A model generated the notes under the pieces. That model saw only the letters and a program-made list of their open reading frames with translations. It ran no database searches and was not told where the DNA came from. Position numbers and translations under genes: made by a program. Positions 23,750-37,536 of a stretch of DNA of 64,000 bases are shown piece by piece (within the stretch, counting starts at the first letter, position 1; every line of letters begins with the position of its first letter). The stretch comes from Pedobacter polaris. GTDB taxonomy: Bacteria; Bacteroidota; Bacteroidia; Sphingobacteriales; Sphingobacteriaceae. The stretch spans positions 186,001 to 250,000 of the forward strand of contig NZ_SWBR01000005.1 in NCBI RefSeq assembly GCF_005116505.1, in the 5' to 3' direction.

Positions 23750-25045
23750 CTACCTTTTGCCAATCTTTCTATCAATTAGCCATTTTTCTAGTCTATCCCA
23801 AAACCCTGCAGCATATTCAAAGCTTAAAGGTTCGTTATAGTATCCACTTTTTGCAACCATTCCATTATGTGCCATATTAGGAACAATAGAAACTGTGAAG
23901 TCGTTATTATGCGCCAATTGCAAGGCAGATTTAATTTTAGGATAGCTTTTCTGCGAATTTATGTTCCAATCTTTTTCTCCCATTAACCATAAGGTAGGGC
24001 TTTGGATGGTTTTTAGATAGGTAAAACTGTCATAACCTAAATTTTTGTTTAACCATGCCCACCATTTTAATGCACTTTCAGTTGGCGTTCTTTCTGTTGG
24101 ATATACTTTTTTGAACCAATCTTTATGTTTATAGCTAGTTATTTGTTGGTTGCCTTCTTGCCATGTTTTGCCATTAGCAGCCAGCTCCCAATTGTCATGG
24201 TACATTTTCATAATCTCTTGTATGGCTGCGGGATCAAAACCATCGGCTATTAAGGAGCCTTTGTATTCATGGCTAATTGTTTGGCGTACATTTTCTCCTG
24301 ATCCAACCCTCATTACCATAAAAGCAAGATCTTTTATTTTGGATGCAGCCATACTTCCGGTCCACCCACCTTGGCTATTTCCCATTATTCCTATCTTTTT
24401 CTGATTGATATTTTTTTGACCGTTTAAGAATTTAACACCAGCAACTAGGTCATTGGCTAATTCGTCGAAGCTAGCAGTTTCCCAGTCGCCTGTTGATTCC
24501 CCAGCGCCCTGTTTGTCGAATGTGAGTACACCAATTCCTAGTTGCAGAAAAAAGGTGGTAAAAAATCCTACACCTCTTGTTGATGGGCCTGAGCCATGGG
24601 CAAATACAACAACAGGATGCTTACCTTCTCCTTGTGGCAAGTAAAGATCTCCTTTGATTATATTTTTGCCACTTTGAAATGATATTGATTCTACTTGATG
24701 TGGAGCTACTCTTTTACCCGAAGATCTTATAGTATGCTCGACTATCTCTAAACCATCAATTTGGCTGTTTTTTGAAGTGAAAGCAAATGTTTTCGTGCTA
24801 TCATTCATATCCCTAAATGTATTTGATGAAACAGGAATAAGCACTCCAATTTTTAAAGTTTTAAGGTCTAGATAAACCAAGCTTTGATTTAATTCATCGA
24901 AAATTCCAAGCGTAATGCGCTGTCCATTCCCAAAATCGTAAGTACCTTCATATTGATATAATTCATTCCTCTGAATTGATTTTAGCTGCGCAGAACTTAT
25001 CTCAGTTACAAAGAAGACAAGCACAAAAAGATATTTATAAAACAT
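23750..25045 (-). CDS. Exported alpha/beta hydrolase
   Basis: 431 residues with a signal peptide (FLVLVFF-type core in MFYKYLFVLVFFVTEISSAQ). A ~120-residue N-terminal beta domain is followed by an alpha/beta hydrolase domain: oxyanion strand HPVVVFAHGSGPSTRGVGFF, nucleophile elbow GNSQGGW, acid in LWLMGEKDWNIN and the histidine in IVPNMAHNGMV. Family role: hydrolysis of ester or peptide bonds at the cell surface or periplasm. It resembles acyl-peptide-hydrolase/dienelactone-hydrolase-like members. Substrate not readable. Confidence 0.87.
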   Translation of the reverse strand: MFYKYLFVLVFFVTEISSAQLKSIQRNELYQYEGTYDFGNGQRITLGIFDELNQSLVYLDLKTLKIGVLIPVSSNTFRDMNDSTKTFAFTSKNSQIDGLEIVEHTIRSSGKRVAPHQVESISFQSGKNIIKGDLYLPQGEGKHPVVVFAHGSGPSTRGVGFFTTFFLQLGIGVLTFDKQGAGESTGDWETASFDELANDLVAGVKFLNGQKNINQKKIGIMGNSQGGWTGSMAASKIKDLAFMVMRVGSGENVRQTISHEYKGSLIADGFDPAAIQEIMKMYHDNWELAANGKTWQEGNQQITSYKHKDWFKKVYPTERTPTESALKWWAWLNKNLGYDSFTYLKTIQSPTLWLMGEKDWNINSQKSYPKIKSALQLAHNNDFTVSIVPNMAHNGMVAKSGYYNEPLSFEYAAGFWDRLEKWLIDRKIGKR

Positions 25046-25228
25046 ACAATAGATTTGATTGTACTATAGGACGACTAGCTTTAAATTAAGGTTACATCTT
25101 ATTATTAAATTAGAATATCTTTTACTCAAAATGCTTAATTAACAAATCAATGTCTTTAATTTCATCTGATTATTTTATCTTTATGCGATTTTAAGAAAAG
25201 GGTTAATTTCATGCCCAGTTCCACCTAA

Positions 25229-27463
<2,235 letters not shown>

Positions 27464-27487
27464 GGTAAAACAAATTACTTATCATAG

Positions 27488-27589
27488 CAATTACTAGTCG
27501 TAGCATCTCGCTACGACTTTTTTATTTTCAATTTTTAACCAGATACGAATGGATTACCATAAGATTTTTTATCTGTGGTTAAATTTTCC
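27488..27589. repeat. Twin terminator repeat, unit 1
   Basis: Begins CAATTACTAGTCGTAGC, contains the terminator 27497-27524, then TTTTCAATTTTTAACC and ends with TTTTTTATCTGTGGTTAAA. The same order of blocks recurs in unit 2, so the region downstream of icd has been duplicated. Confidence 0.75.
27497..27524 (+). terminator. Terminator 1 after icd
   Basis: Stem GTCGTAGC / GCTACGAC with a 5-base loop, followed by TTTTTTTA. It is 34 bases after the icd stop codon. Confidence 0.85.
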
Positions 27590-27591
27590 AA

Positions 27592-27697
27592 CAATTACTA
27601 GTGGTAGCTTCTCGCTACGACTTTTTTTGTTTTCAATTTTTTACCCACAGATACGCACAGATTACCACAGATATTTTTTATCTGTGGTAAAATTTCT
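27592..27697. repeat. Twin terminator repeat, unit 2
   Basis: Second unit starting CAATTACTAGTGGTAGC. It holds a second terminator (27601-27628, stem GTGGTAGC / GCTACGAC then TTTTTTT) and a further perfect inverted repeat TACCACAGAT / ATCTGTGGTA at 27663-27689. The unit 1 copy of the last palindrome is degenerate. Confidence 0.75.
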
Positions 27698-27750
27698 AAA
27701 AACAAATTTCCAATCCCTTTCGTTATATTCATACAAATAATCGAAATACC

Positions 27751-28170
27751 ATGAGTACAGAAAATCAAAATCATAAACCATCAAATGATAAATTACATCC
27801 AAGCGATTTGGGGGAGACCAAAGATTTTAACGACTTGTCTTTTGATGAGGTAAAGCAAAGTTATGAGTTAGATGTAAAAGGTGATGAAAAGGATTACGAT
27901 CATCCTATGCCTTATGAAACTGTTGCAGCTGGCTCCGTAGATGATAATTCTACTTTCGATGAAGCAAACCCGTATGTTGGAGATGAATATGCAACTGATG
28001 TCGAAAAAGTGAATGATAAATTAGAAGAGTTGGGAATGCATATCGATAATAGAGGCGAAAGCGTTTTGTTAAGTCCAGAAGATGAGCTTTTAGCCCGTAC
28101 AGAAGAAGATTTTAGAGATGACTTAGATGAAGAAGGTTATCCTAAAAATGATGCGCCGAATGCAGGTTAA
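27751..28170 (+). CDS. Acidic protein of unknown function
   Basis: 139 residues, strongly acidic (many Asp and Glu, few hydrophobic clusters), so probably soluble and partly disordered. No signal peptide and no known motif. Segments such as PSDLGETKDFNDLSFDEV and SPEDELLARTEEDFRDDLDE give it a likely helical second half. The gene sits after the icd terminators with its own upstream region, and converges with the response regulator gene, sharing the hairpin at 28243-28279. Function not inferred. Confidence 0.7.
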   Translation: MSTENQNHKPSNDKLHPSDLGETKDFNDLSFDEVKQSYELDVKGDEKDYDHPMPYETVAAGSVDDNSTFDEANPYVGDEYATDVEKVNDKLEELGMHIDNRGESVLLSPEDELLARTEEDFRDDLDEEGYPKNDAPNAG

Positions 28171-28242
28171 AACTGGATTATAAAAATTGATGATAAATTA
28201 GCTGAAAGTTTAAAATAGGTAACTGCTTGTTTTATAATGCAT

Positions 28243-28279
28243 AAATGGGTTCAACAGCTTAACTGTCGAACCCATTTTT
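28243..28279. terminator. Bidirectional terminator overlapping the response-regulator stop
   Basis: Arms AAATGGGTTC and GAACCCATTT flank a 15-base loop that contains the minus-strand stop codon of the regulator gene (28259-28261). It can serve the acidic-protein gene from the left (T-tract after it) and the regulator gene from the right. Confidence 0.7.
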
Positions 28280-28903
28280 AATTGCATACACTGCTAAACC
28301 TACACGTGTTTTTAGTTCTAATTTTTCAAATAAACTATCTCTGTAACCTTCAACAGTTCTTGTACTACAGTTCATTTGGTTTGCAATTTCTTTGTAACTC
28401 ATTTCGGTTACTGTAAATCGTAAAAATGTTTTTTCTCTATTATTAAAAAGATCTTTTTTATCAGATTGCTTGTCTTCGTTACAAATACTGGAAAATACTT
28501 TGCTTGCAGCCCATTCTGGATAATAATGTCCATTTTTAACTAAATGATTTAGGGCATCGGCCAATACTGTTGGATGTACATTTTTTAGTAAATACCCCTT
28601 AGCACCACTTTTTATCATTTTAATAAGGCTATGCTCATCGTCTTGCATACTTAATGCCATAATTAACACTTCAGGATAGGTTTCTTTAAGCCAAGCTGCA
28701 GTTTCAAAACCATCCATTATTGGCATGCTAATATCTAACAATACCACGTTGGGTACATTTTTAGGGTGCTGACATCTTTCTTGCAATTCTTTACCGTTCT
28801 CACATTCGTAAAGCACCTCAAATTGCTCGAAATTCGCTAAAATACCGCTCAATGCCTTTGCAATTAAAATATGGTCATCAACAATTACAATACTAGTCTT
28901 CAT
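28259..28903 (-). CDS. LuxR/NarL-type response regulator
   Basis: 214 residues. Receiver domain: IVDDHILIAKALSGIL at the start, phosphoacceptor D57 in VVLLDISMPIMDG, Ser/Thr in IMALSMQDDE and Lys in GYLLKNVHPT. The C-terminal LuxR HTH has TVTEMSYKEIANQMNCSTRT and VEGYRDSLFEKLELKTR. It follows the kinase gene after 1 base, so it is its cognate regulator. It may act on the palindrome TTAAACAACGGTAAA seen upstream of this operon and of the 31722 gene (inference). Confidence 0.93.
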   Translation of the reverse strand: MKTSIVIVDDHILIAKALSGILANFEQFEVLYECENGKELQERCQHPKNVPNVVLLDISMPIMDGFETAAWLKETYPEVLIMALSMQDDEHSLIKMIKSGAKGYLLKNVHPTVLADALNHLVKNGHYYPEWAASKVFSSICNEDKQSDKKDLFNNREKTFLRFTVTEMSYKEIANQMNCSTRTVEGYRDSLFEKLELKTRVGLAVYAIKNGFDS

Positions 28904-28904
28904 T

Positions 28905-29681
28905 TTATATCGAAATTTCGATGGTTAATTTTGTTCCATTCCCTTCTTTACTTAACATATGGTAACTACCTCCAATTAAGGCTATTCTTTTTTTTATATT
29001 AATTAAGCCAATACCCTTGCTTATCAATTTTTCGGTATTAAAGCCTTTGCCATCATCACTTAAAGTTAGTGTTAATTGATTATCATTTTTAACTAAACTT
29101 GTCGAAATTGTTTTACAGGAAGCATGTTTAATGCTATTTTGTATAAATTCTTGTACTATCCTTAACAGTAAACTTTTAGTTTGATAATTTAGCAGTACCG
29201 ACTCAAAATTAACCGTTAAATTAAGTTTATATTTTTTTAGCACCTTAATTTTAGCAAATTCTTCTTTCAGTAAAATAGAAATATCATTTGTATCTATATG
29301 GTCATCCGTCAAAGACTTAGATAAATGCCTTAATTCAGACAAAGCATCATTTATTAATTCTCCAATTCCAGTAATTTTATCATTTATTGGTAAAGCTTCG
29401 TTTTCAAAAACCAATTGTTGGGTGTATAAACTTGCCAAAGTAAGTTTTTGGCCAACATTGTCGTGTATTTCTCGGCCAATGTGCTGCATGGTTTGGGTTT
29501 GTATTTCTATTTGTGTAGCCAACAATTCCTTTTGATGCAAAACATGTTGTTGCTGTAATTGGTTTACACTCTCTTTTTTTTTGTTTTTATATTGAACCAC
29601 AAAGGAGATAACAGCCACAATAAATGCAACCAAAAAAACATTAAATAAAATAATAACTAATAAATATTCGGTTTGCCCCAT
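28905..29681 (-). CDS. HisKA_3 sensor histidine kinase
   Basis: 258 residues. One N-terminal transmembrane helix (VIILFNVFLVAFIVAVISFV), a coiled coil, then the HisKA_3 phosphorylation helix with H73 in GREIHDNVGQKLTLASLY. The ATPase domain has QEFIQNSIKHASC (N box), DDGKGFN and KGIGLINIKKRI. It has no sensory domain of its own, so input may come from the membrane protein encoded just upstream, whose 3' end overlaps this gene by 25 bases. Confidence 0.92.
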   Translation of the reverse strand: MGQTEYLLVIILFNVFLVAFIVAVISFVVQYKNKKKESVNQLQQQHVLHQKELLATQIEIQTQTMQHIGREIHDNVGQKLTLASLYTQQLVFENEALPINDKITGIGELINDALSELRHLSKSLTDDHIDTNDISILLKEEFAKIKVLKKYKLNLTVNFESVLLNYQTKSLLLRIVQEFIQNSIKHASCKTISTSLVKNDNQLTLTLSDDGKGFNTEKLISKGIGLINIKKRIALIGGSYHMLSKEGNGTKLTIEISI

Positions 29682-30316
29682 ATAAAAGCTGCGGTAAATA
29701 ATAGGTACATCAACTGGTTAGCGATCAGGAAAAAAGTATAGTAGTTGCTCCATAAATTCGGTTCGTTTAGCAATAAATTATAAAATGAAAAAAATGGTAA
29801 GGTTCCTACATAAAACAGTATAATACCAATATTAATATAGAACATATAATTTGTACGGAATAAGAGTATTTTGTCTGATTTTATTTGTTTAAAAATTTCT
29901 AAAATAACTAAAAACATCAGTAGTACCGTACCAACTGTATAGCTTAAAGACAGCATCATGCTTGGCTTATGAATAATTGTAAAATATGGTAAAAACGAAA
30001 TGCAAAATAAACCTGTAATAATCCAAAACAACTTTTGTCTATTTAACGATTTTATTGCATATAGCCAATAAAAAAACACAAACTCAATTGGTATAACAAA
30101 AAAATCATAGTACTTACTTATGTACGATGGATAATTTTTTAGTCCTAATTTTGCAAATACCTCCATAAGAAAAATAGCACAACAATAAACAATAAACCAT
30201 TTCCAATAACTTTTTTTGAGTTTAGGGTAATGAAATAAAGCAACAAGAGCTGTTAAAAATTGAAGCCAAATCAGTGTTTCGCTCAATATTTTTTGGGTAT
30301 TGCTAATTAATACCAT
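29657..30316 (-). CDS. Polytopic membrane protein of the signalling operon
   Basis: 219 residues with about six or seven transmembrane helices, such as WLQFLTALVALFHY, VIPIEFVFFYWLYAI, LFWIITGLFCISFLPYFTII and LIANQLMYLLFTAAFIWG. No enzymatic motif. It lies between an exported anchored protein (5-base gap) and a histidine kinase (25-base overlap), so a sensor or co-sensor role is plausible. I have the impression that this four-gene order is common in Bacteroidota, but cannot confirm it here. Confidence 0.7.
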   Translation of the reverse strand: MVLISNTQKILSETLIWLQFLTALVALFHYPKLKKSYWKWFIVYCCAIFLMEVFAKLGLKNYPSYISKYYDFFVIPIEFVFFYWLYAIKSLNRQKLFWIITGLFCISFLPYFTIIHKPSMMLSLSYTVGTVLLMFLVILEIFKQIKSDKILLFRTNYMFYINIGIILFYVGTLPFFSFYNLLLNEPNLWSNYYTFFLIANQLMYLLFTAAFIWGKPNIY

Positions 30317-30321
30317 TGTGA

Positions 30322-30960
30322 TTAAAAAGCTTGCCCCTCCCTCGATACTGGAGGTATTATTTGTCCATGATTTAATGACATCACTTCTATATCATCTCTT
30401 TCATCTTTTACCATCAAAAAACTCATTTGCTTTGCGGGTTTCTTTATAAATCCTTCGTAAGTATTAATATCTAAAGGATTAAAATCAGCATAAATGCCTC
30501 TCGCATTTTTAATTACTGGCAATAGAATTAAAGTGTGTTTTCTTTCGTAAAGTCTAGTAATATCATTGCTTAGTAGTTTTTCCAAATTTTCATACCCCGG
30601 TCTAGACCACTTTGTATTTAATGGATATGCTGCATAGTACATTCTTATAGCCAGTTTGTTATTTACCCCTGGTTGGTTATGTTTTACATTACTTTCAATG
30701 TCATTAATGAATTTTTTGAGCGTAGGTATATCGAATAAAATAGAATTTGCATCGTTTTCCACAACGTTATCTATGGCTTTAAGTTGGGTTTGCCTATAAT
30801 TATTAGTCATTTCTTGTATTAAACTAACCCGTAATGTACTTGGCTTAGAACTGGGTGGATTAGGGTTGGAATCTGTTTTTTTTGGTGGATAGTAGTAAGC
30901 ATATACACCAAAAGCGATAATAAGTACCACAATAATGAGAGTTAGATGTTTCTTTTCCAT
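30322..30960 (-). CDS. Membrane-anchored exported protein of unknown function
   Basis: 213 residues from the ATG at 30960 (MEKKHLTLIIVVLIIAF). A longer frame reaches 31068, but its extra N-terminus would overlap a 31-base palindrome, so the shorter start is preferred. After one N-terminal helix and a Pro/Ser linker comes a soluble domain with LFDIPTLKKFINDIESNVKH, IRMYYAAYP and YERKHTLILLPV. I recognise this as a recurring Bacteroidota protein of unknown role. First gene of the operon 30960 to 28259. Confidence 0.7.
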   Translation of the reverse strand: MEKKHLTLIIVVLIIAFGVYAYYYPPKKTDSNPNPPSSKPSTLRVSLIQEMTNNYRQTQLKAIDNVVENDANSILFDIPTLKKFINDIESNVKHNQPGVNNKLAIRMYYAAYPLNTKWSRPGYENLEKLLSNDITRLYERKHTLILLPVIKNARGIYADFNPLDINTYEGFIKKPAKQMSFLMVKDERDDIEVMSLNHGQIIPPVSREGQAF

Positions 30961-31060
30961 TTTATTGATTTGAATTATATAATAAATATACTTTTTAATT
31001 ATACAAAATAGAGAAGGTTTAGTTAAGAAAACTAGGGGCATTAACTCGTTTTTACTATCG

Positions 31061-31091
31061 TTAAACAACGGTAAATTTTACCGTTGTTTAA
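31061..31091. promoter_or_regulatory. Palindrome upstream of the signalling operon
   Basis: Perfect 15-base arms TTAAACAACGGTAAA and TTTACCGTTGTTTAA with a single central base. It is 101 bases upstream of the operon's first ATG (30960). The left arm recurs exactly at 31512-31526. A dimeric regulator site is the likely reading. Confidence 0.5.
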
Positions 31092-31511
31092 ACATCAAAA
31101 TTCAGTTTTATACACTTTGGTAGAGACCTCACAGTATTGCAGCTTTGTAAAGTATAATACGGTTTACAAATTTTAGTAGTACAGTTTTTATAAAATAGAA
31201 TTGATGAAAAAAAACTTGAGGCGAATGAAACAGTTTATGAACTTGGTGCAAATGAAAATAGAATTTTGCAAAACCATATTTTATAAACTATAAAATATTA
31301 TACCTACCAAAGATTATCCCTGAAAAGTTGGCTATACTTTATCTCATGCTAAACTCCTTCTTCTCTATTTCAGAAAGCTCTGTCAGAACCGATTAAAATA
31401 AGGTTTTTATAAACTTTCCAATTGAGGTTTTTCTTTTCAATAAGCGTATTTAAGCTTTATTGATTAAGCCCATTTTATGCTTTCGATGCTTATTAATACT
31501 CTTTAATGCAG

Positions 31512-31536
31512 TTAAACAACGGTAAAATTTACCGTT
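31512..31536. promoter_or_regulatory. Second palindrome of the same family
   Basis: TTAAACAACGGTAAA (31512-31526) is followed by a one-base-spaced complement TTTACCGTT, giving 9-base arms at 31518-31536; the outer part of the right arm has decayed. It lies 186 bases before the ATG of the repeat protein gene (31722). Confidence 0.5.
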
Positions 31537-31721
31537 AAGCAAACAAAAAAATACAGCTTTATGCACATTGATTACGAATGAATAGTGGTGCAGATTTGTG
31601 ATAAGCAATCATTTATTCTTTAGGCGATGCTTTTATAAATGAACTCATAAATATATTATAACTAAAAGGAGTATTCCGAAAATCCTTAAAAGAGTAGGAG
31701 TAAAAATTAAATCTAAATAAA

Positions 31722-32399
31722 ATGAAAAAATCAATTCTACTACTAATCGCATTGGCTTTTAGTACAGTTGCATTTTCGCAAAGAGGAGTAAAATTTACTA
31801 AAGCGGAGCAACAACAAATGCAAAGAATTCTGGGTAATGATTTCACAGCAGTATTAGGTGAGAAGGGACAATTGGCAGTTGTTACACCAGACAAAGTTGG
31901 ACAATTGACATCTACATCAAAGGGTAGTTTTAAGGGGATGCCTGGGCTTGCTGCTAATGCAATTTTGGCTGCTAACGAAAAATGGTGGGTTTACAAACAA
32001 AGTGGCGATTTGCTTAAGTCAAAATTGGGAGAAGAACGTTTTAACCAATTAAATAAAATCCTTACCAAAAAAGGATTAAATATCAATGCGGTTGAAAAAA
32101 CAGTAGCATTTACTAGAGCAGAGCAACAACAAATGCAGAAAGTTTTGGGTAGAAACTTTACAGCAGTATTAGGTGAGAAGGGACAATTGGCAGTTGTTAC
32201 GCCAGACAAGGTTGGACAATTGAAATCTACAGCAAGGGGTGGTTTTAGCGGGATGCCTGGACTTGCAGCTAATGCAGTTTTGGCTGCTAACGAAAAATGG
32301 TGGGTTTATAAACAAAGTGGTGATTTGCTTAAGTCAAAATTAGGAGAAGAACGTTTTAACCAATTAAATGCAATCCTTGCTAAAAAAGGATTGAACTAA
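31722..32399 (+). CDS. Secreted protein made of two near-identical 97-residue repeats
   Basis: 225 residues: signal peptide 1-19 or 20 (MKKSILLLIALAFSTVAFSQ), then repeat 1 (24-120) and repeat 2 (129-225), joined by INAVEKTV. The repeats agree at 83 of 97 positions; the stretch from FTAVLGEKGQLAV to VGQL and the block AANEKWWVYKQSGDLLKSKL are unchanged. Each has a GMPGLAANA-type small-residue hydrophobic segment. There are no cysteines. I do not recognise a family. Directly followed by a hairpin and by genes resembling SdpB and SdpA, so it could be the precursor of a secreted peptide or toxin (inference). Base composition is like its neighbours. Confidence 0.8.
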   Translation: MKKSILLLIALAFSTVAFSQRGVKFTKAEQQQMQRILGNDFTAVLGEKGQLAVVTPDKVGQLTSTSKGSFKGMPGLAANAILAANEKWWVYKQSGDLLKSKLGEERFNQLNKILTKKGLNINAVEKTVAFTRAEQQQMQKVLGRNFTAVLGEKGQLAVVTPDKVGQLKSTARGGFSGMPGLAANAVLAANEKWWVYKQSGDLLKSKLGEERFNQLNAILAKKGLN

Positions 32400-32407
32400 A
32401 ATTCGCC

Positions 32408-32439
32408 AATATAGTGTAGATGCAACTCTACACTATATT
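32408..32439 (+). terminator. Hairpin between the repeat protein and HTTM genes
   Basis: Perfect 13-base arms AATATAGTGTAGA and TCTACACTATATT with a 6-base loop, 8 bases after the stop codon. There is no T-tract, so it may be a partial terminator or an mRNA-end stabiliser that lets the first gene be expressed more than the two that follow. Confidence 0.6.
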
Positions 32440-32470
32440 AATGTTATTTAACTAATATAAAATACTAAAA

Positions 32471-33385
32471 ATGAACTCATATAAAATTAAAAGTGTTTTG
32501 AAGGATAATGTTTTTTATAACATTACCTATTGCTATAGTGCTAACCAATTAGAGGTATTTAGAATTTTAGTAGCAGCTTTTGCAATTATTTCGATGTTTA
32601 CTTTGGTGTTAGATTACGATGTTTTTTTTGCGCCAAACGGTATAGTTAACTGGGAGGTTTCTAATGCAAATGCACTTTGGTTTGAGTGTCATCCACAAAA
32701 AATAGCCGATTTTTTAAATGTCCCGCCCCAATATGTAATGATTACAATTCTTACACTATATTTTTTAAGCCTTATTACATTATTGTTGGGGGTTTGGACA
32801 AGGTTATCAGCTATTGTTTGCCTAATTACCTTTACGCTAATTACCAATGTAATGTCTTCTTTCGCATTTGGGGTAGATATTTATCAATCAGTCTGTTTTT
32901 TTTTCCTTACCATATTTCCAACGGGTTATAGTTTATCGTTAATCAAAAAAGATAGTTACCATAGCCTTAGCGAGATTAAGCAAATTTGTGTCAGGGTATT
33001 GCAGCTATATTTAATTATAACCTATATGTCGGCTGGGTTTGAGAAAGCATTTATGCTAAACTGGTGGAATGGAAGATTTATTTATTTCCTTAGCAACGAC
33101 CCAACCATAATGACAACAAATTTTTTCCCAAAAGATCAAAGTATTCTCTTCTATGCCTTTTTTGGAATTATGGTGGTATTTATGGAATCATTATATTTTA
33201 TACTCGTGTGGTTTAAGAAAACTAGATTATATATAATAGTCATAATCATATCAATGCATTTGTTTATTGGACTTTTTATGGACTTGTTATTTTTTGGAGT
33301 GCTACTAATTATACTAAATATAGTTTGCTGGTATCCAGCAATTTTTGTTGATTTTAAAATTAAAGAACATGATAAAAGCATATAA
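32471..33385 (+). CDS. HTTM / SdpB-like membrane protein
   Basis: 304 residues with at least six transmembrane helices. The N-terminal ANQLEVFRILVAAFAI, the central LTLYFLSLITLLLGVWTRLS and the LIITYMSAGFEKAFMLNWWN with GRFIYFLSNDP are features of the HTTM family, to which the vitamin-K-carboxylase membrane domain and SdpB of the Bacillus Sdp system belong. SdpB (about 320 residues) is needed to mature the SDP toxin. No carboxylase C-terminal domain is present. The next gene starts within this one (17-base overlap at 33369), and the gene before encodes a secreted repeat protein. Confidence 0.7.
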   Translation: MNSYKIKSVLKDNVFYNITYCYSANQLEVFRILVAAFAIISMFTLVLDYDVFFAPNGIVNWEVSNANALWFECHPQKIADFLNVPPQYVMITILTLYFLSLITLLLGVWTRLSAIVCLITFTLITNVMSSFAFGVDIYQSVCFFFLTIFPTGYSLSLIKKDSYHSLSEIKQICVRVLQLYLIITYMSAGFEKAFMLNWWNGRFIYFLSNDPTIMTTNFFPKDQSILFYAFFGIMVVFMESLYFILVWFKKTRLYIIVIIISMHLFIGLFMDLLFFGVLLIILNIVCWYPAIFVDFKIKEHDKSI

Positions 33386-33884
33386 AATTACTTTTCGAAT
33401 AATATTGTTAATCGTTTTTTTATCGATAATGAAAGTTAGTGTCTGGATTGATAAAAATATTAACTGCTATGAACTTTCAGTTGCCCAATCTTTTGTTTTT
33501 AGAGTAACAAGATTAAACTGGCAGTATGGGTTTTTTACAAGTAAATCTAATAATTATCAATTTATTAAAAGCGATATTAGCTTAGTAGAACCTGCTAACC
33601 CCTCGAGAAATACAATAATTGCAAAGGATTCAGGTTTGGAGAAACTAGTTTTACCCATAAATGCAGTTAGGGTTAACTCTTCAATTCAACAAATGGTTAG
33701 AGATACGCTTTATTTAGAAGCTGGGTCTAGATCCATTGCTTTATACTTATTTAAACAATATCCATCTTATAGAAATATTGATTTTTCTATACAAACGTAT
33801 AATAGAAAAATAAAAACTGATGGTACTAGATTTGCACTTACAACTAAGCTTGATACATTATTTAACCGTAGAATTAGTTATTAG
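33369..33884 (+). CDS. SdpA-like membrane-anchored protein
   Basis: 171 residues from the ATG at 33369 (MIKAYKITFRIILLIVFLSI); an earlier ATG at 33345 would add 8 residues. One N-terminal transmembrane helix, then an extracytoplasmic domain. The segment RLNWQYGFFTSKSNNYQFIK resembles, from memory, the P-Q-x-W-x-F-F-T motif of SdpA proteins, and the length (SdpA is about 158) and position next to an SdpB-like gene agree. The rest (SRNTIIAKDSGLEKLVLP and so on) is not recognised. It overlaps the HTTM gene by 17 bases, so the two are translationally coupled. Confidence 0.5.
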   Translation: MIKAYKITFRIILLIVFLSIMKVSVWIDKNINCYELSVAQSFVFRVTRLNWQYGFFTSKSNNYQFIKSDISLVEPANPSRNTIIAKDSGLEKLVLPINAVRVNSSIQQMVRDTLYLEAGSRSIALYLFKQYPSYRNIDFSIQTYNRKIKTDGTRFALTTKLDTLFNRRISY

Positions 33885-33943
33885 TAGAGAATACTATGGG
33901 ACTTGCTCTGGAGTTGCTTTATTAAAGTTAAACTTTAAACTGT

Positions 33944-35800
33944 TTAAGGGTTAATATCTAGGTTAAATCTTCTTCTCAATTCTTCCAACTGCGGATTTTT
34001 ATCAACCATGTGAGTGTACTTGTCTTTGTTGGTATAAATTCGCTTTTTAGCGGTACTCTCAGCTCTTTTGGTGGTGATCTGAAGATCAAAATTCTTTAGT
34101 GCACTTCTTAAAAAGTTAAGTAATTCTACTTTTTCATTTTGTAAGGTACTTTCTAAAGCAGAATTTTCAACCAATACCGTAATTTCAGTTCCTTCTATAA
34201 TTGGATCATTATTCATCAAAGTAAACAAATGAATCTTATGTTCATCATTTGCCTTTTGTGTATAAACTTTCCATAGTTCTAAAAGTTTTTCTGGCGTAAA
34301 CTCTTGCTTCTCGTTTCCTGAAATATATTGAGGGCCTTTATCTTCTTCAGCGGTAGCAATTCTTTCTAAGTCTGTAAGTGAAGGAATTAAAGAAGTAACA
34401 TTTTGTGTATTTAGTGGCTGAATTTTAATGGAGCCTGTGGTTGCTTTTAAGGGGGTAAGGGGTTTGGTATTAACTGGAGCTTGGGTAGGAAGTGGAATAT
34501 CTAAATGATCTGGCAAATCATGTAAATCTTCTTTTTCAACAAAATCTTTTAGATCGGTAATGGTCGCACTTTCAACACTCAAGCTTTCCAACCTTCCGCC
34601 TTCCAGACTTTCGGTCTTCCGGACTTCTTTGCTTTCAGACTTAATTAAAGTTTTTTTTTTATCCTGATCTAAGTCAGTTGCTGTGGATTGATTTGCAAGT
34701 TGGATTACCGAAGGAATATGGCACATTTTAATGAGCGATAGTTCTACTTGCAACCGTTGGTTTTTACTGTTTTTATAAATTAGATCGCACTGATTGGCTA
34801 AATTTAAAGCCGTAAGAATAAAACCTAGGTCAGCAGACTTACTTTGTGCAAGGTATTTTTGTTTAATATTCTCGCTTACTTCTAAAAGTTGAATAGTTTG
34901 TGCGTCTTTACCAACTAATAAATTTCTAAAATGGCTAGCTAATCCGTTAATGAAATTGTTGCCATCAAAACCATTATTTAAAATCTCATTAAATAATAAT
35001 AAAGCTTTGCTAACATCGCCACTACTTAAATAGTCAGTTAGTTTAAAATAGTAATCATAATCTAAAATATTTAGGTTGTCGATTACTGATTTATAAGTTA
35101 AATTTTTGTTGGTATAACTTACAATTTGGTCGAACATAGAAAGCGCATCACGCAAACCGCCATCCGCTTTTTGAGCAATAATATGTAAACCATCAGCTTC
35201 TACAGCGATGTTCTCACGAACTGCAATTTTGTTTAAGTGAGATGCAATATCTTCTACCTGAATTCTGTTGAAATCAAAAATCTGACAACGTGATAAAATG
35301 GTTGGCAAAATCTTGTGCTTTTCGGTAGTTGCCAATATAAAGATGGCGTAGCTTGGCGGTTCTTCCAGCGTTTTCAAAAATGCATTAAAAGCATTTGCCG
35401 AAAGCATGTGAACCTCATCTATGATATAGATTTTATACTTGCCTGCTTGCGGAGGTATCCTAACCTGTTCAATTAAACTTCTAATGTCATCAACAGAGTT
35501 GTTAGAAGCGGCATCTAATTCATGGAAATTAAAAGAATGCCCGGTCTGAAAAGAAACACAACTTTCACAAGTACCACAGGCTTCTTGTTCTGGTGTTAAG
35601 TTTGTACAGTTAATTGTTTTGGCAAGGATACGGGCGCAAGTTGTTTTACCTACACCACGTGGTCCACAAAACAAAAATGCCTGGGCCAATTGATTATTCT
35701 TGATGGCGTTTTTTAAAGTTCCCGTAATATGCTGTTGTCCAACTACGGTTTCAAACGTAGCAGGGCGATATTTACGAGCCGAAACAATAAAATTTTCCAT
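33944..35800 (-). CDS. dnaX: DNA polymerase III subunit gamma/tau
   Basis: 618 residues. Walker A GPRGVGKTT (46-54), the four-cysteine zinc module C-x8-C-x2-C-x2-C around INCTNLTPEQEACGTCESC, Walker B YIIDEVHMLS, sensor-1 ILATTEKHKILPTILSRC and the DAASNNSVDDIR loop are all present. Reaction and role: ATP-dependent clamp-loader motor of the replisome. The C-terminal third is a low-complexity linker and a ~140-residue tau-like region with coiled helices. No frameshift signal for a gamma product was identified; a run of nine T at 34650-34658 (A run in the mRNA) could allow slippage but is untested. Confidence 0.97.
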   Translation of the reverse strand: MENFIVSARKYRPATFETVVGQQHITGTLKNAIKNNQLAQAFLFCGPRGVGKTTCARILAKTINCTNLTPEQEACGTCESCVSFQTGHSFNFHELDAASNNSVDDIRSLIEQVRIPPQAGKYKIYIIDEVHMLSANAFNAFLKTLEEPPSYAIFILATTEKHKILPTILSRCQIFDFNRIQVEDIASHLNKIAVRENIAVEADGLHIIAQKADGGLRDALSMFDQIVSYTNKNLTYKSVIDNLNILDYDYYFKLTDYLSSGDVSKALLLFNEILNNGFDGNNFINGLASHFRNLLVGKDAQTIQLLEVSENIKQKYLAQSKSADLGFILTALNLANQCDLIYKNSKNQRLQVELSLIKMCHIPSVIQLANQSTATDLDQDKKKTLIKSESKEVRKTESLEGGRLESLSVESATITDLKDFVEKEDLHDLPDHLDIPLPTQAPVNTKPLTPLKATTGSIKIQPLNTQNVTSLIPSLTDLERIATAEEDKGPQYISGNEKQEFTPEKLLELWKVYTQKANDEHKIHLFTLMNNDPIIEGTEITVLVENSALESTLQNEKVELLNFLRSALKNFDLQITTKRAESTAKKRIYTNKDKYTHMVDKNPQLEELRRRFNLDINP

Positions 35801-35896
35801 CGCAACGAAAATAGGAAAATTTTAGTTGTTGTAAGGGTTCAAATTTGGAATGTTGAAAAATTACTACCAGATAAGTAGTTCCAAAATTTGTTGCTT

Positions 35897-36769
35897 TTAT
35901 TTAATCATAGATTTCAATTCCTTTCGGTATTGAGAAGCGCTTTTCCCTGTAAACTCTTTAAATAGCTTGTTAAAGTGACTAAAGTTATTGAAACCGCTTT
36001 CGTAGCTAATATTTGCGATGCTAATTGGTTTTTCGGCTAACAATTTAGAAGCATGTACAATTCTATATTCGTTTACAAATTTGGTAAAGGTTTTTTTGGT
36101 GATCTTTTTAAAATACCTACAAAACGAAGGCACTGTCATGCTTGACATCTCTGCAATGTCTTCTAGGCTAATTTCTTCTAAAAAATGATCCTTAACATAG
36201 TTGAAAACCATGTTAATTCTGTCATTGTCTTGAACTTGCATTTCTAAAGAGAAATTTTGAGCATTTAACAAGGTATAATCAGAAGCTTGTTCAAGTTCTC
36301 GTAGTACACTTAAAAGCGCTAGTAATTTCTCGAATGACCATAAACTATTCATTTTTTCTAAGGTATGTCCAACAAGTTTCATGGTGTCTTTGCCAAAAGC
36401 AATACCATATTTAGCTTTTTCGAATAAGTTGGCAATACCTTTAGTTTCTTTAAGTGATAGAAAGTCGGTGCCTAAAAAATCCGGTTTCATTTGTATTACA
36501 ACCTCATTTTTGTTACCAGTGGTTTCATCGGTAAAACCACAATGAGGCAAATTAGTGCCTATTAATATCAAATCGCCTTCGGTATAGTATGAAATATGAC
36601 TCCCAATTTGGCGTTTGCCAGCACCGCCATTTACAAATACCATCTCAATTTCTGGGTGATAGTGCCATAAATGAGCCTTATTGTTGGCGTTAGTTACGTA
36701 TTTAGAATAAGAGAAAGAACTCCCAAAAGAAGGTTCAACAATTTCGAAACTTGGCCTTATCTTTTTCAT
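35897..36769 (-). CDS. AraC family regulator with cupin domain
   Basis: 290 residues. The N-terminal cupin is seen as LWHYHPEIEMVFVNGGAGKR with GDLILIGTNLPHCGF. The C-terminal double HTH has LEDIAEMSSMTVPSFCRYFK and IANISYESGFNNFSHFNKLF, with FTGKSASQYRKEL at the end. This architecture is that of sugar-responsive AraC regulators, but no sugar genes are next to it. It is divergent from the exported protein at 36943, with about 170 bases between. Confidence 0.88.
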   Translation of the reverse strand: MKKIRPSFEIVEPSFGSSFSYSKYVTNANNKAHLWHYHPEIEMVFVNGGAGKRQIGSHISYYTEGDLILIGTNLPHCGFTDETTGNKNEVVIQMKPDFLGTDFLSLKETKGIANLFEKAKYGIAFGKDTMKLVGHTLEKMNSLWSFEKLLALLSVLRELEQASDYTLLNAQNFSLEMQVQDNDRINMVFNYVKDHFLEEISLEDIAEMSSMTVPSFCRYFKKITKKTFTKFVNEYRIVHASKLLAEKPISIANISYESGFNNFSHFNKLFKEFTGKSASQYRKELKSMIK

Positions 36770-36942
36770 ATTCTAATGCAAAATTAACTTAAAAATTATG
36801 GTCTATTGTTAATTTAACGTAAACAAAATAGTTATTGGGGTAATTTTGCATAGATATTGGAAAATATGCCATAAAATTAGCGTGATAATCAGTAGTATTT
36901 TTGTTTAACAATTATTTATTAACTCTTTTAAGCAATCATATT

Positions 36943-37536
36943 ATGAAAAATTTATTAAAAACTAGTCTTTTAGCAGTTATCTTATTAACTTCTACTGTTG
37001 CATTCGCAAATTATGATGATTTTTCACTAAAAGTGAAGAATGGAGATGAAAAGTCAATTGTTTTTTTAATAGAAGAGGCTCAGGATGTTAATTTATCCAT
37101 TCATAGTTTGTACGATGGGGTAATTTATGAACAAAAAATTCATGCAGTAAGACCTTTAACGAAAGTTTATAATTTAGAAGCTTTTCCTGATGGAAATTAT
37201 ACTGTGAAAATTGAGAATGATAAAAAACTAATTGAATACCAAGTTACTATAGAAAATGGCAAAACATTAGTTTCTGATGCCGTAATTACAGAGTTTTTTA
37301 AGCCTGTTTTAACTAAAGAAAATAATGTGATTACACTTAATATGGATAATGCGCCAAGTGGACCAATTGAAGTTAAAATCTTAAACGAGTACAATGAAGA
37401 ACTTTATGCTAAAGTTTTTGCAAGTAAAGCTAAGTTTATGAAAAAATTCAATACTGAGAAGAGTGAAGCAAAAGAACTTACATTTATTGTTAGAGCTAAA
37501 GATCAAGAATTTATTGAAACGCTTTCGATAAAATAA
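36943..37536 (+). CDS. Exported protein of unknown function
   Basis: 197 residues from the ATG at 36943 (MKNLLKTSLLAVILLTST), a better start than the one 42 bases upstream because it begins directly at the signal peptide. The mature protein has two beta-sandwich-like repeats: VKNGDEKSIVFLIEEAQDVN with NLEAFPDGNYTVKIEND, and VITLNMDNAPSGPIEVKILN with LTFIVRAKDQEFIETLS. This is the shape of small periplasmic Ig-like proteins found near regulators in Pedobacter. Function unknown. A strong terminator follows. Confidence 0.75.
   Translation: MKNLLKTSLLAVILLTSTVAFANYDDFSLKVKNGDEKSIVFLIEEAQDVNLSIHSLYDGVIYEQKIHAVRPLTKVYNLEAFPDGNYTVKIENDKKLIEYQVTIENGKTLVSDAVITEFFKPVLTKENNVITLNMDNAPSGPIEVKILNEYNEELYAKVFASKAKFMKKFNTEKSEAKELTFIVRAKDQEFIETLSIK

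Follow-up and report, generated by a model that had tools for sequence, protein, structure and literature searches.

Two related palindromes lie between divergent operons in the genome of Pedobacter polaris, and their placement raises the question of what they control and which protein might act through them. On the minus strand of the window (the whole 64-kb stretch of DNA that was analyzed), an operon of four signaling genes begins with M212 (30322-30960), whose product combines an N-terminal helix with a domain that matches no PDB structure (best E 0.81). It continues with M219 (29657-30316), a membrane protein of no known family with hydrophobic segments visible by eye, a histidine kinase with HisKA_3 and HATPase_c domains (28905-29681), and a NarL/LuxR-type response regulator with Response_reg and GerE domains (28259-28903). 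On the plus strand, a repeat protein (31722-32399) with two copies of a domain of ~100 aa and, by eye, a start resembling a signal peptide is followed by a membrane protein, likewise judged by eye (32471-33385; no family or PDB match), and by a third gene (33369-33884) with no credible family match. A likeness of this rightward operon to SdpA/SdpB/SdpC was noted by eye only; none of its three genes has a credible match in Pfam or NCBIfam. The repeat protein is present in 6 of 145 genomes of the genus, and a structure prediction for it (pLDDT 50, 3 sequences) was too poor for use. Directly after its gene lies a perfect 13-bp inverted repeat with a 6-nt loop (32408-32439), which is possibly a terminator or processing hairpin.

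The preliminary description of this DNA had placed a perfect 31-nt palindrome at 31061-31091 and a recurrence of its arm at 31512-31526, and both are present. The first palindrome, P1, reads TTAAACAACGGTAAA-T-TTTACCGTTGTTTAA, with 15-nt arms, a 1-nt spacer, and its center at 31076. The recurring arm is an exact copy and belongs to a second palindrome, P2 (31512-31536), which has a perfect 19-bp core at 31518-31536. Neither palindrome is assigned to a strand, and nucleotides 31067-31091 and 31512-31536 are exact reverse complements over 25 nt. Perfect inverted repeats with arms of at least 11 nt and gaps of at most 8 nt number four in the window. P1 exceeds the others in length and alone has 15-nt arms, which did not arise in any of 20 windows simulated with a first-order Markov model.

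A search of the genome (15 contigs, 4.57 Mb) recovered the exact 15-mer three times, always at this locus. Up to two mismatches yielded 38 matches versus 98 for a reversed control pattern, and this lack of an excess argues against a dispersed repeat; both one-mismatch matches fall within coding ORFs and have no -7 element nearby. Scattering of the motif over unrelated intergenic regions was not found, which rules out a general dispersed repeat. Across the 145 genus genomes, the 19-bp core AACGGTAAANTTTACCGTT is exact in two, P. polaris itself (twice) and G022 (once), both of which also carry the signaling operon. With one mismatch it occurs in nine genomes, at a locus of the same kind in G000, G088, G022, and G114, and inside open frames of 497-1006 codons in the other five (G023, G049, G122, G073, and G018). 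The 15-mer search found no further regulon members in the genome of P. polaris. A composite pattern of site plus -7 element had 0 matches there, and its spacing excludes P1 and P2 too.

The palindromes are embedded in a direct repeat of 98 nt that is 72% alike between its copies (31051-31148 versus 31502-31599) and that also contains a plus-strand promoter-like element, which had previously gone unseen. Both copies run on this strand into a Bacteroidota-like promoter, in which TTTG or ATTG is followed after 20 bp by CAGCTTTG or CAGATTTG. Downstream of P1, TTTG at 31116-31119 is the -33 candidate and CAGCTTTG at 31140-31147 (last G 31147) the -7-like element; downstream of P2, the -7-like element CAGATTTG lies at 31591-31598. 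Given that both copies have a plus-strand promoter, the P1 module faces right, away from the signaling operon. It leads to a small plus-strand gene absent from the annotation (31204-31293), which encodes the 29-aa peptide MKKNLRRMKQFMNLVQMKIEFCKTIFYKL. The earlier picture of palindromes simply preceding two divergent operons thus had to be revised, because the P1 module has a rightward promoter for this missed gene and P2 has a separate promoter of its own. Relatives show other layouts. In G042, the genes for the peptide and the repeat protein stand in a row behind a single promoter copy, which suggests that the two promoters of P. polaris probably arose by duplication. In G022, the leftward operon and the peptide are present and a rightward operon of the repeat-protein kind is missing.

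To compare this region more widely, we used the best 80 of 116 relatives from an M219 alignment scan, drawn from Pedobacter, Chryseobacterium, Flavobacterium, and a few others. The four signaling genes are present at all 80 of these loci by tblastn, and a set of 82 adds to them the window and L061 of G037. What is conserved across these loci appears to be a 16-bp inverted repeat in which a 4-bp spacer separates two hexamers (6-4-6), a geometry of the ComA type. In P1, this unit would be ATCGTTAAACAACGGT at 31057-31072 (plus strand; unit 1), a 6-4-6 repeat with 5 of 6 pairs that we propose as the regulator site for the signaling operon. A 6-4-6 palindrome scoring at least 6.5 occurs between -140 and -60 of M212 at 42 of the 80 loci, against a mean of 4.66 and a maximum of 10 over 100 shuffles. 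At a score of 7.5, there are 16 loci in this interval versus 2, 5, 3, and 3 in four other upstream intervals, which overlap in part and one of which is shorter. The pattern (CCGT or GGGT)-N6-(ACGG or ACCC), composed after inspection of the same loci, is found in 40 of the 82; as written it is absent from 42, with the window and L142 matching only with a mismatch. Each lineage has its own form of the site, namely ACCGTT-N4-AACGGT in Pedobacter with the peptide, TCCGT-N6-ACGGA in Chryseobacterium, AGGGTT-N4-AACCCT in Flavobacterium, and ATGGGG-N4-CCCCAT in Pedobacter with a subtilase. The arms therefore vary between lineages while symmetry is kept, and changes on both arms are what a site for a dimeric protein predicts.

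Twelve homologous copies of the rightward promoter (two each from G000, G088, and G037, and one each from G042, G022, G131, G124, G027, and G114) help to delimit the unit. Unit 1 has 5 or 6 of its 6 pairs in seven copies and 3 or 4 in the other five; it is perfect in only two, and unit 1 of P2 (GCAGTTAAACAACGGT; 31508-31523, plus strand) has 4 pairs here and 3 in G088. The inner 19 bp of the 31-mer are perfect in just three copies, and the right half drifts. For this reason we prefer the 16-bp unit as the conserved operator over the 31-mer or its 19-bp core, which have weaker support.

Unit 2 was assigned at the mirror position, 23 bp further on, so this spacing is not an independent finding. 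In P1 it is ACCGTTGTTTAAACAT (31080-31095, plus strand), the mirror of unit 1, with one good half-site and 3 of 6 pairs; in P2 it is ACCGTTAAGCAAACAA (31531-31546, plus strand), with 2 of 6. In 11 of the 12 copies, only 1-3 of its 6 positions pair, which makes it a poor palindrome, mostly with one good half-site. The exception is G131, in which unit 1 is poor, the -7 elements are 123 bp apart, and a perfect palindrome sits exactly at the unit 2 position, providing independent backing for it. Further backing comes from Pedobacter loci of the subtilase kind, where the palindrome ATGGGGAAAACCCCAT lies one 23-bp step to the other side. This palindrome replaces the CCGT site and is 37.5 bp from the signaling -7 element at 12 of 12 loci (L155, L157, L158, L159, L162, L167, L176, L183 with one base off, L189, L206, L211, and L213).

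The site also keeps a set distance from the promoter of the signaling operon. The -7-like element of the signaling operon, CTATTTTG, lies at 31004-31011 on the minus strand (last G 31004), 60.5 bp from the center of unit 1. This position upholds the choice of the ATG at 30960 as the start of the first gene, since the element falls within the longer ORF that begins with TTG; the closest orthologs also align from residue 1. We examined 42 sites, comprising the 40 pattern matches and two imperfect ones, in the window and in L142, that were entered by hand. TTTG is found 59.5-61.5 bp from the site center in 31 of these and 69.5-71.5 bp from it in the remaining 11, such that two bins hold all 42, and there are only 3 other TTTG in the same stretches. 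After base shuffling of the stretches (300 rounds), these bins captured 1.05 of the 42 on average and never more than 6. The distance to the ATG varies from 86 to 113. Because many of the loci are closely related, they were collapsed by identity into 24, 16, and 8 clusters at 80, 70, and 60%, and all representatives are in either bin. The spacing between the site and the promoter of its operon is thus fixed and in phase with the helix, as would be anticipated for autoregulation. A step of ~10 bp, or one helical turn, suggests an activator that keeps to the same side of the helix, and the signaling operon is probably activated by its own regulator. A scan for sigma70-type promoters found 5, versus 5.1 expected, and this promoter type was rejected.

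A second fixed distance ties the two promoters of P1 to each other. The last G residues of the leftward and rightward -7 elements (31004 and 31147) are 143 bp apart, and their midpoint, 31075.5, is at most 0.5 base from the center of the 31-mer. Both -7 patterns (leftward CAAA; rightward CA/GA-NN-TTTG, in the ranges searched) are present in 28 of the 82 loci, and 24 of these pairs are separated by 141-145 bp (143 in 17, 144 in 5, 145 in 1, and 141 in 1). Such pairs occur in both Pedobacter kinds, Flavobacterium, and Spongiivirga. When partners were swapped among the 28 loci (1000 rounds), a mean of 7.2 and a maximum of 14 fell in this range, and exactly 143 bp was reached by a mean of 2.9 and at most 7 rather than the 17 observed. 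The four outliers (L144, L181, L202, and L205) have patterns 109-123 bp apart; three are Chryseobacterium loci (109-112 bp), and the fourth, L144, is the peptide-bearing G131, in which a second right-hand pattern gives 215. From unit 1, the rightward -7 element is 82.5 bp away in 11 of the 12 copies, P2 among them, and 83.5 bp in G022; a further candidate in G124 lies at 97.5. Taken with G131 and the subtilase-kind palindrome, these distances suggest that the 31-mer represents two facing units, each ~60 bp from a promoter.

Which protein would occupy these units? The GerE domain of the response regulator is the only recognized DNA-binding domain among the four proteins of the leftward operon. 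D9, D10, D57, and K107, which correspond to the acidic pocket, the phosphoacceptor Asp, and the Lys, are invariant in 11 regulator sequences, and its closest solved relatives, the three profile matches in the PDB at E ≤1e-20, are VraR (5hev), NarL (1a04), and DevR (3c3w). Two features of a NarL/FixJ regulator with a dyad operator are found here: Response_reg and GerE with a conserved pocket, and a 6-4-6 inverted repeat at the target promoters (5 of 6 pairs in the window copy). The GGGT operator goes with the recognition helix ENYRDSLF in five loci (L148, L151, L186, L201, and L212), and L165 and L180 have this helix without a GGGT site. A recognition-helix code was rejected, as helix follows operator in only 5 of 7 Flavobacterium-type loci. 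Moreover, Chryseobacterium and most subtilase-kind Pedobacter have the common helix ESYRDQLC and different palindromes, which speaks against any simple code.

Sequence comparison shows conservation, geometry, spacing, co-occurrence, and selection on the peptide; we infer the identity of the regulator, its binding, activation rather than repression, and a role for unit 2. P1 and P2 are likely to be sites of the two-component regulator, a NarL/LuxR-type protein that would activate the operon encoding it as well as the rightward peptide gene and repeat-protein operon. P1 would be the control center for two divergent promoters. The phosphorylated regulator (28259-28903) might bind unit 1 as a dimer and, from a position ~60 bp ahead of the -7 element, activate the promoter of its own operon; if it also binds the mirror unit 2 or close to it, the rightward promoter might be activated in the same way, with the 29-aa cationic peptide as its output. 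The 31-nt palindrome would then be the joint appearance of two facing units. P2 could be a duplicate of the rightward module, through which the repeat-protein operon, also equipped with a DUF805b leader, would join the same regulator. The proposal made earlier that one regulator controls both operons, most simply the LuxR-type regulator of the leftward operon, survives in part: by comparison, a site appears to act on both sides, with this protein as the one that likely binds it. What does not survive is the 31-mer itself as the conserved element.

Another dimeric regulator, for example, a different LuxR-type response regulator, might use a site that merely adjoins the operon. The genome encodes many related response regulators (29 matches; 30 candidates scored), and the sites in G027 and G114 outlive the local regulator. 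Nevertheless, we consider such a protein unlikely, given that the site recurs before the operon in several genera at set distances, that the GGGT form accompanies one recognition helix in most Flavobacterium-type loci, and that both genomes with exact 19-bp cores have the operon. Repressors often use palindromes located between divergent promoters, and a protein bound there could in principle block both. This is quite improbable here because in the 42 sites the center lies clear of the -7 element, ~60 or 70 bp ahead of it, these distances differ by about one helical turn, and the -7 elements (CAnnTTTG, CTATTTTG) deviate from TAnnTTTG.

The perfect 15-bp stem might instead act in RNA, as a hairpin or terminator. 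This was rejected as very improbable: the palindrome is upstream of both predicted -7 elements, a terminator scan of 30900-31800 found none, Rfam matches in 25000-37000 are confined to DUF805b, and the stem is not conserved. Least of all do we expect a mobile dispersed repeat or a chance palindrome, an idea that could draw on the 98-nt repeat being present twice. The genome has no third copy (the next DNA match has an E of 0.05), and the five one-mismatch cores found away from such loci among the 145 genomes lie in long open frames. Activation by the regulator of the operon thus continues to be the explanation that we favor.

The peptide gene that this promoter would serve has equivalents at the same place in G088, G037, G042, and G022. 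A five-sequence profile run against the 145 genus genomes at E ≤0.001 added G131 (4e-13), G124 (5e-7), and G010 (8e-4). The peptides of G131 and G124 adjoin an orthologous signaling operon and that of G010 does not, and we judge this weak eighth match to be chance. Matches up to an E of 1 occur in 108 of the 145 genomes and are taken as chance; the one weak match inspected, in G077, is not beside the operon. All seven peptide-bearing genomes have the operon alongside. Among the seven sequences, all 21 pairs (which are not independent) have a pN/pS below 0.6 across the final 24 codons, and differences number 253 at third codon positions versus 160 and 106 at the others; by these measures, the gene is under purifying selection. 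In a family-level scan of 399 genomes, six peptide matches at E ≤0.001 were all from this genus, with the weak G010 match included; G042 and G131, both with the peptide, are outside those six, having been not drawn or missed. Outside the five peptide loci of the 80-locus set, the best match to the peptide model has an E of 0.085, and inspection of 15 Chryseobacterium loci by eye gave no convincing conserved small divergent ORF.

It is tempting to speculate that the peptide is a signal. Perhaps it is sensed by M212, M219, and the kinase, such that the regulator boosts the peptide and itself and switches on an exported, bacteriocin-like operon. We regard this autoinduction circuit as doubtful, and propose it tentatively from the linkage, the shared promoter layout, and the co-loss of the genes. 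Like ComX or Agr peptide genes, this one is linked to a kinase/regulator pair and lost with it. In G027 (L084) and G114 (L085), where kinase and regulator have decayed and the repeat-protein operon and, for the most part, the promoter site are kept, the ORF at the peptide position has no likeness to the peptide (the remnant in G114 has an E of 0.3); G027 has a second, intact operon of the same kind elsewhere (L073). Neither a processing or export gene nor a pheromone-receptor kinase of a known family was found among nine neighbors searched in Pfam and seven in NCBIfam. The peptide could equally well be antimicrobial or regulatory.

The operon divergent from the signaling genes differs among relatives. 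It may encode a subtilase (Pfam 8e-43), in most cases together with a 67-aa protein, or, as in L151, a DUF2589 protein (3e-28); in L148 (Flavobacterium jejuense), a class I lanthipeptide precursor (NF038153, 2.6e-12) lies upstream of M212 and divergent to the operon. This variety suggests that one switch may be used for different products that are exported or antagonistic. A DUF805b-like leader is found in the subtilase and DUF2589 kinds. In P. polaris, the DUF805b RNA (RF02914; 31666-31700, plus strand) is a candidate cis-regulatory leader of the repeat-protein operon. Its genome has four copies above the cut-off; two precede small ORFs adjoining a DUF2589 gene (L087 and L089) and one is near a short ORF (L088). 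A literature search for the term DUF805b found nothing relevant among the listed papers. Matches to Flavo-1 RNA also occur near the locus in relatives (L059, L061, L063, and L085).

If our reading is correct, the comparison supplies an exact operator, together with its two promoters, for a family of two-component systems that occurs in Pedobacter, Chryseobacterium, and Flavobacterium, genera in which, to our knowledge, few regulator sites have been mapped. It has also uncovered a conserved peptide gene outside the families of Pfam and NCBIfam. A literature search on peptide quorum sensing in Bacteroidetes found nothing relevant among the listed papers. Should the peptide prove to be a signal, it would exemplify peptide autoinduction in a phylum where that search found none, and the circuit of these Gram-negative Bacteroidota would run through one mirror-symmetric operator.

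Several known systems resemble parts of this arrangement. PMC7366714 and PMC5682007 give the -7 consensus of Bacteroidota as TAnnTTTG, and the former adds a -33 element of approximately TTTG that was not identified in F. johnsoniae. The promoters described here share TTTG at -7 and, at P1 and P2, TTTG or ATTG 20 bp before it. However, their -7 elements begin with CA or CT, and no -33 element is visible by eye on the signaling side, which might be as expected of activator-dependent promoters. The DUF805b motif recurs as a 35-nt match ahead of the repeat protein here and also in the divergent leaders of relatives, with the difference that these operons adjoin this two-component system. The regulator shares its receiver and GerE domains with NarL and the VraR/LiaR family; it differs in having a short cognate kinase, whose gene follows those of two proteins of unknown family.

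A further close parallel is ComP-ComA of Bacillus subtilis, in which a small peptide gene, ComX, is linked to the kinase/regulator pair, as the peptide gene is here. Unlike in that system, no recognized modifying enzyme or known signal is alongside, and the peptide has no family. According to PMC4797271, ComA, a NarL/FixJ-type regulator of the same family, binds inverted repeats of a hexamer with an optimal spacer of 4 nt, and a second element is close to the first. Both features of the ComA box have counterparts at P1, where they are found in Bacteroidota, with another hexamer, and in a site held between divergent promoters at set spacing.
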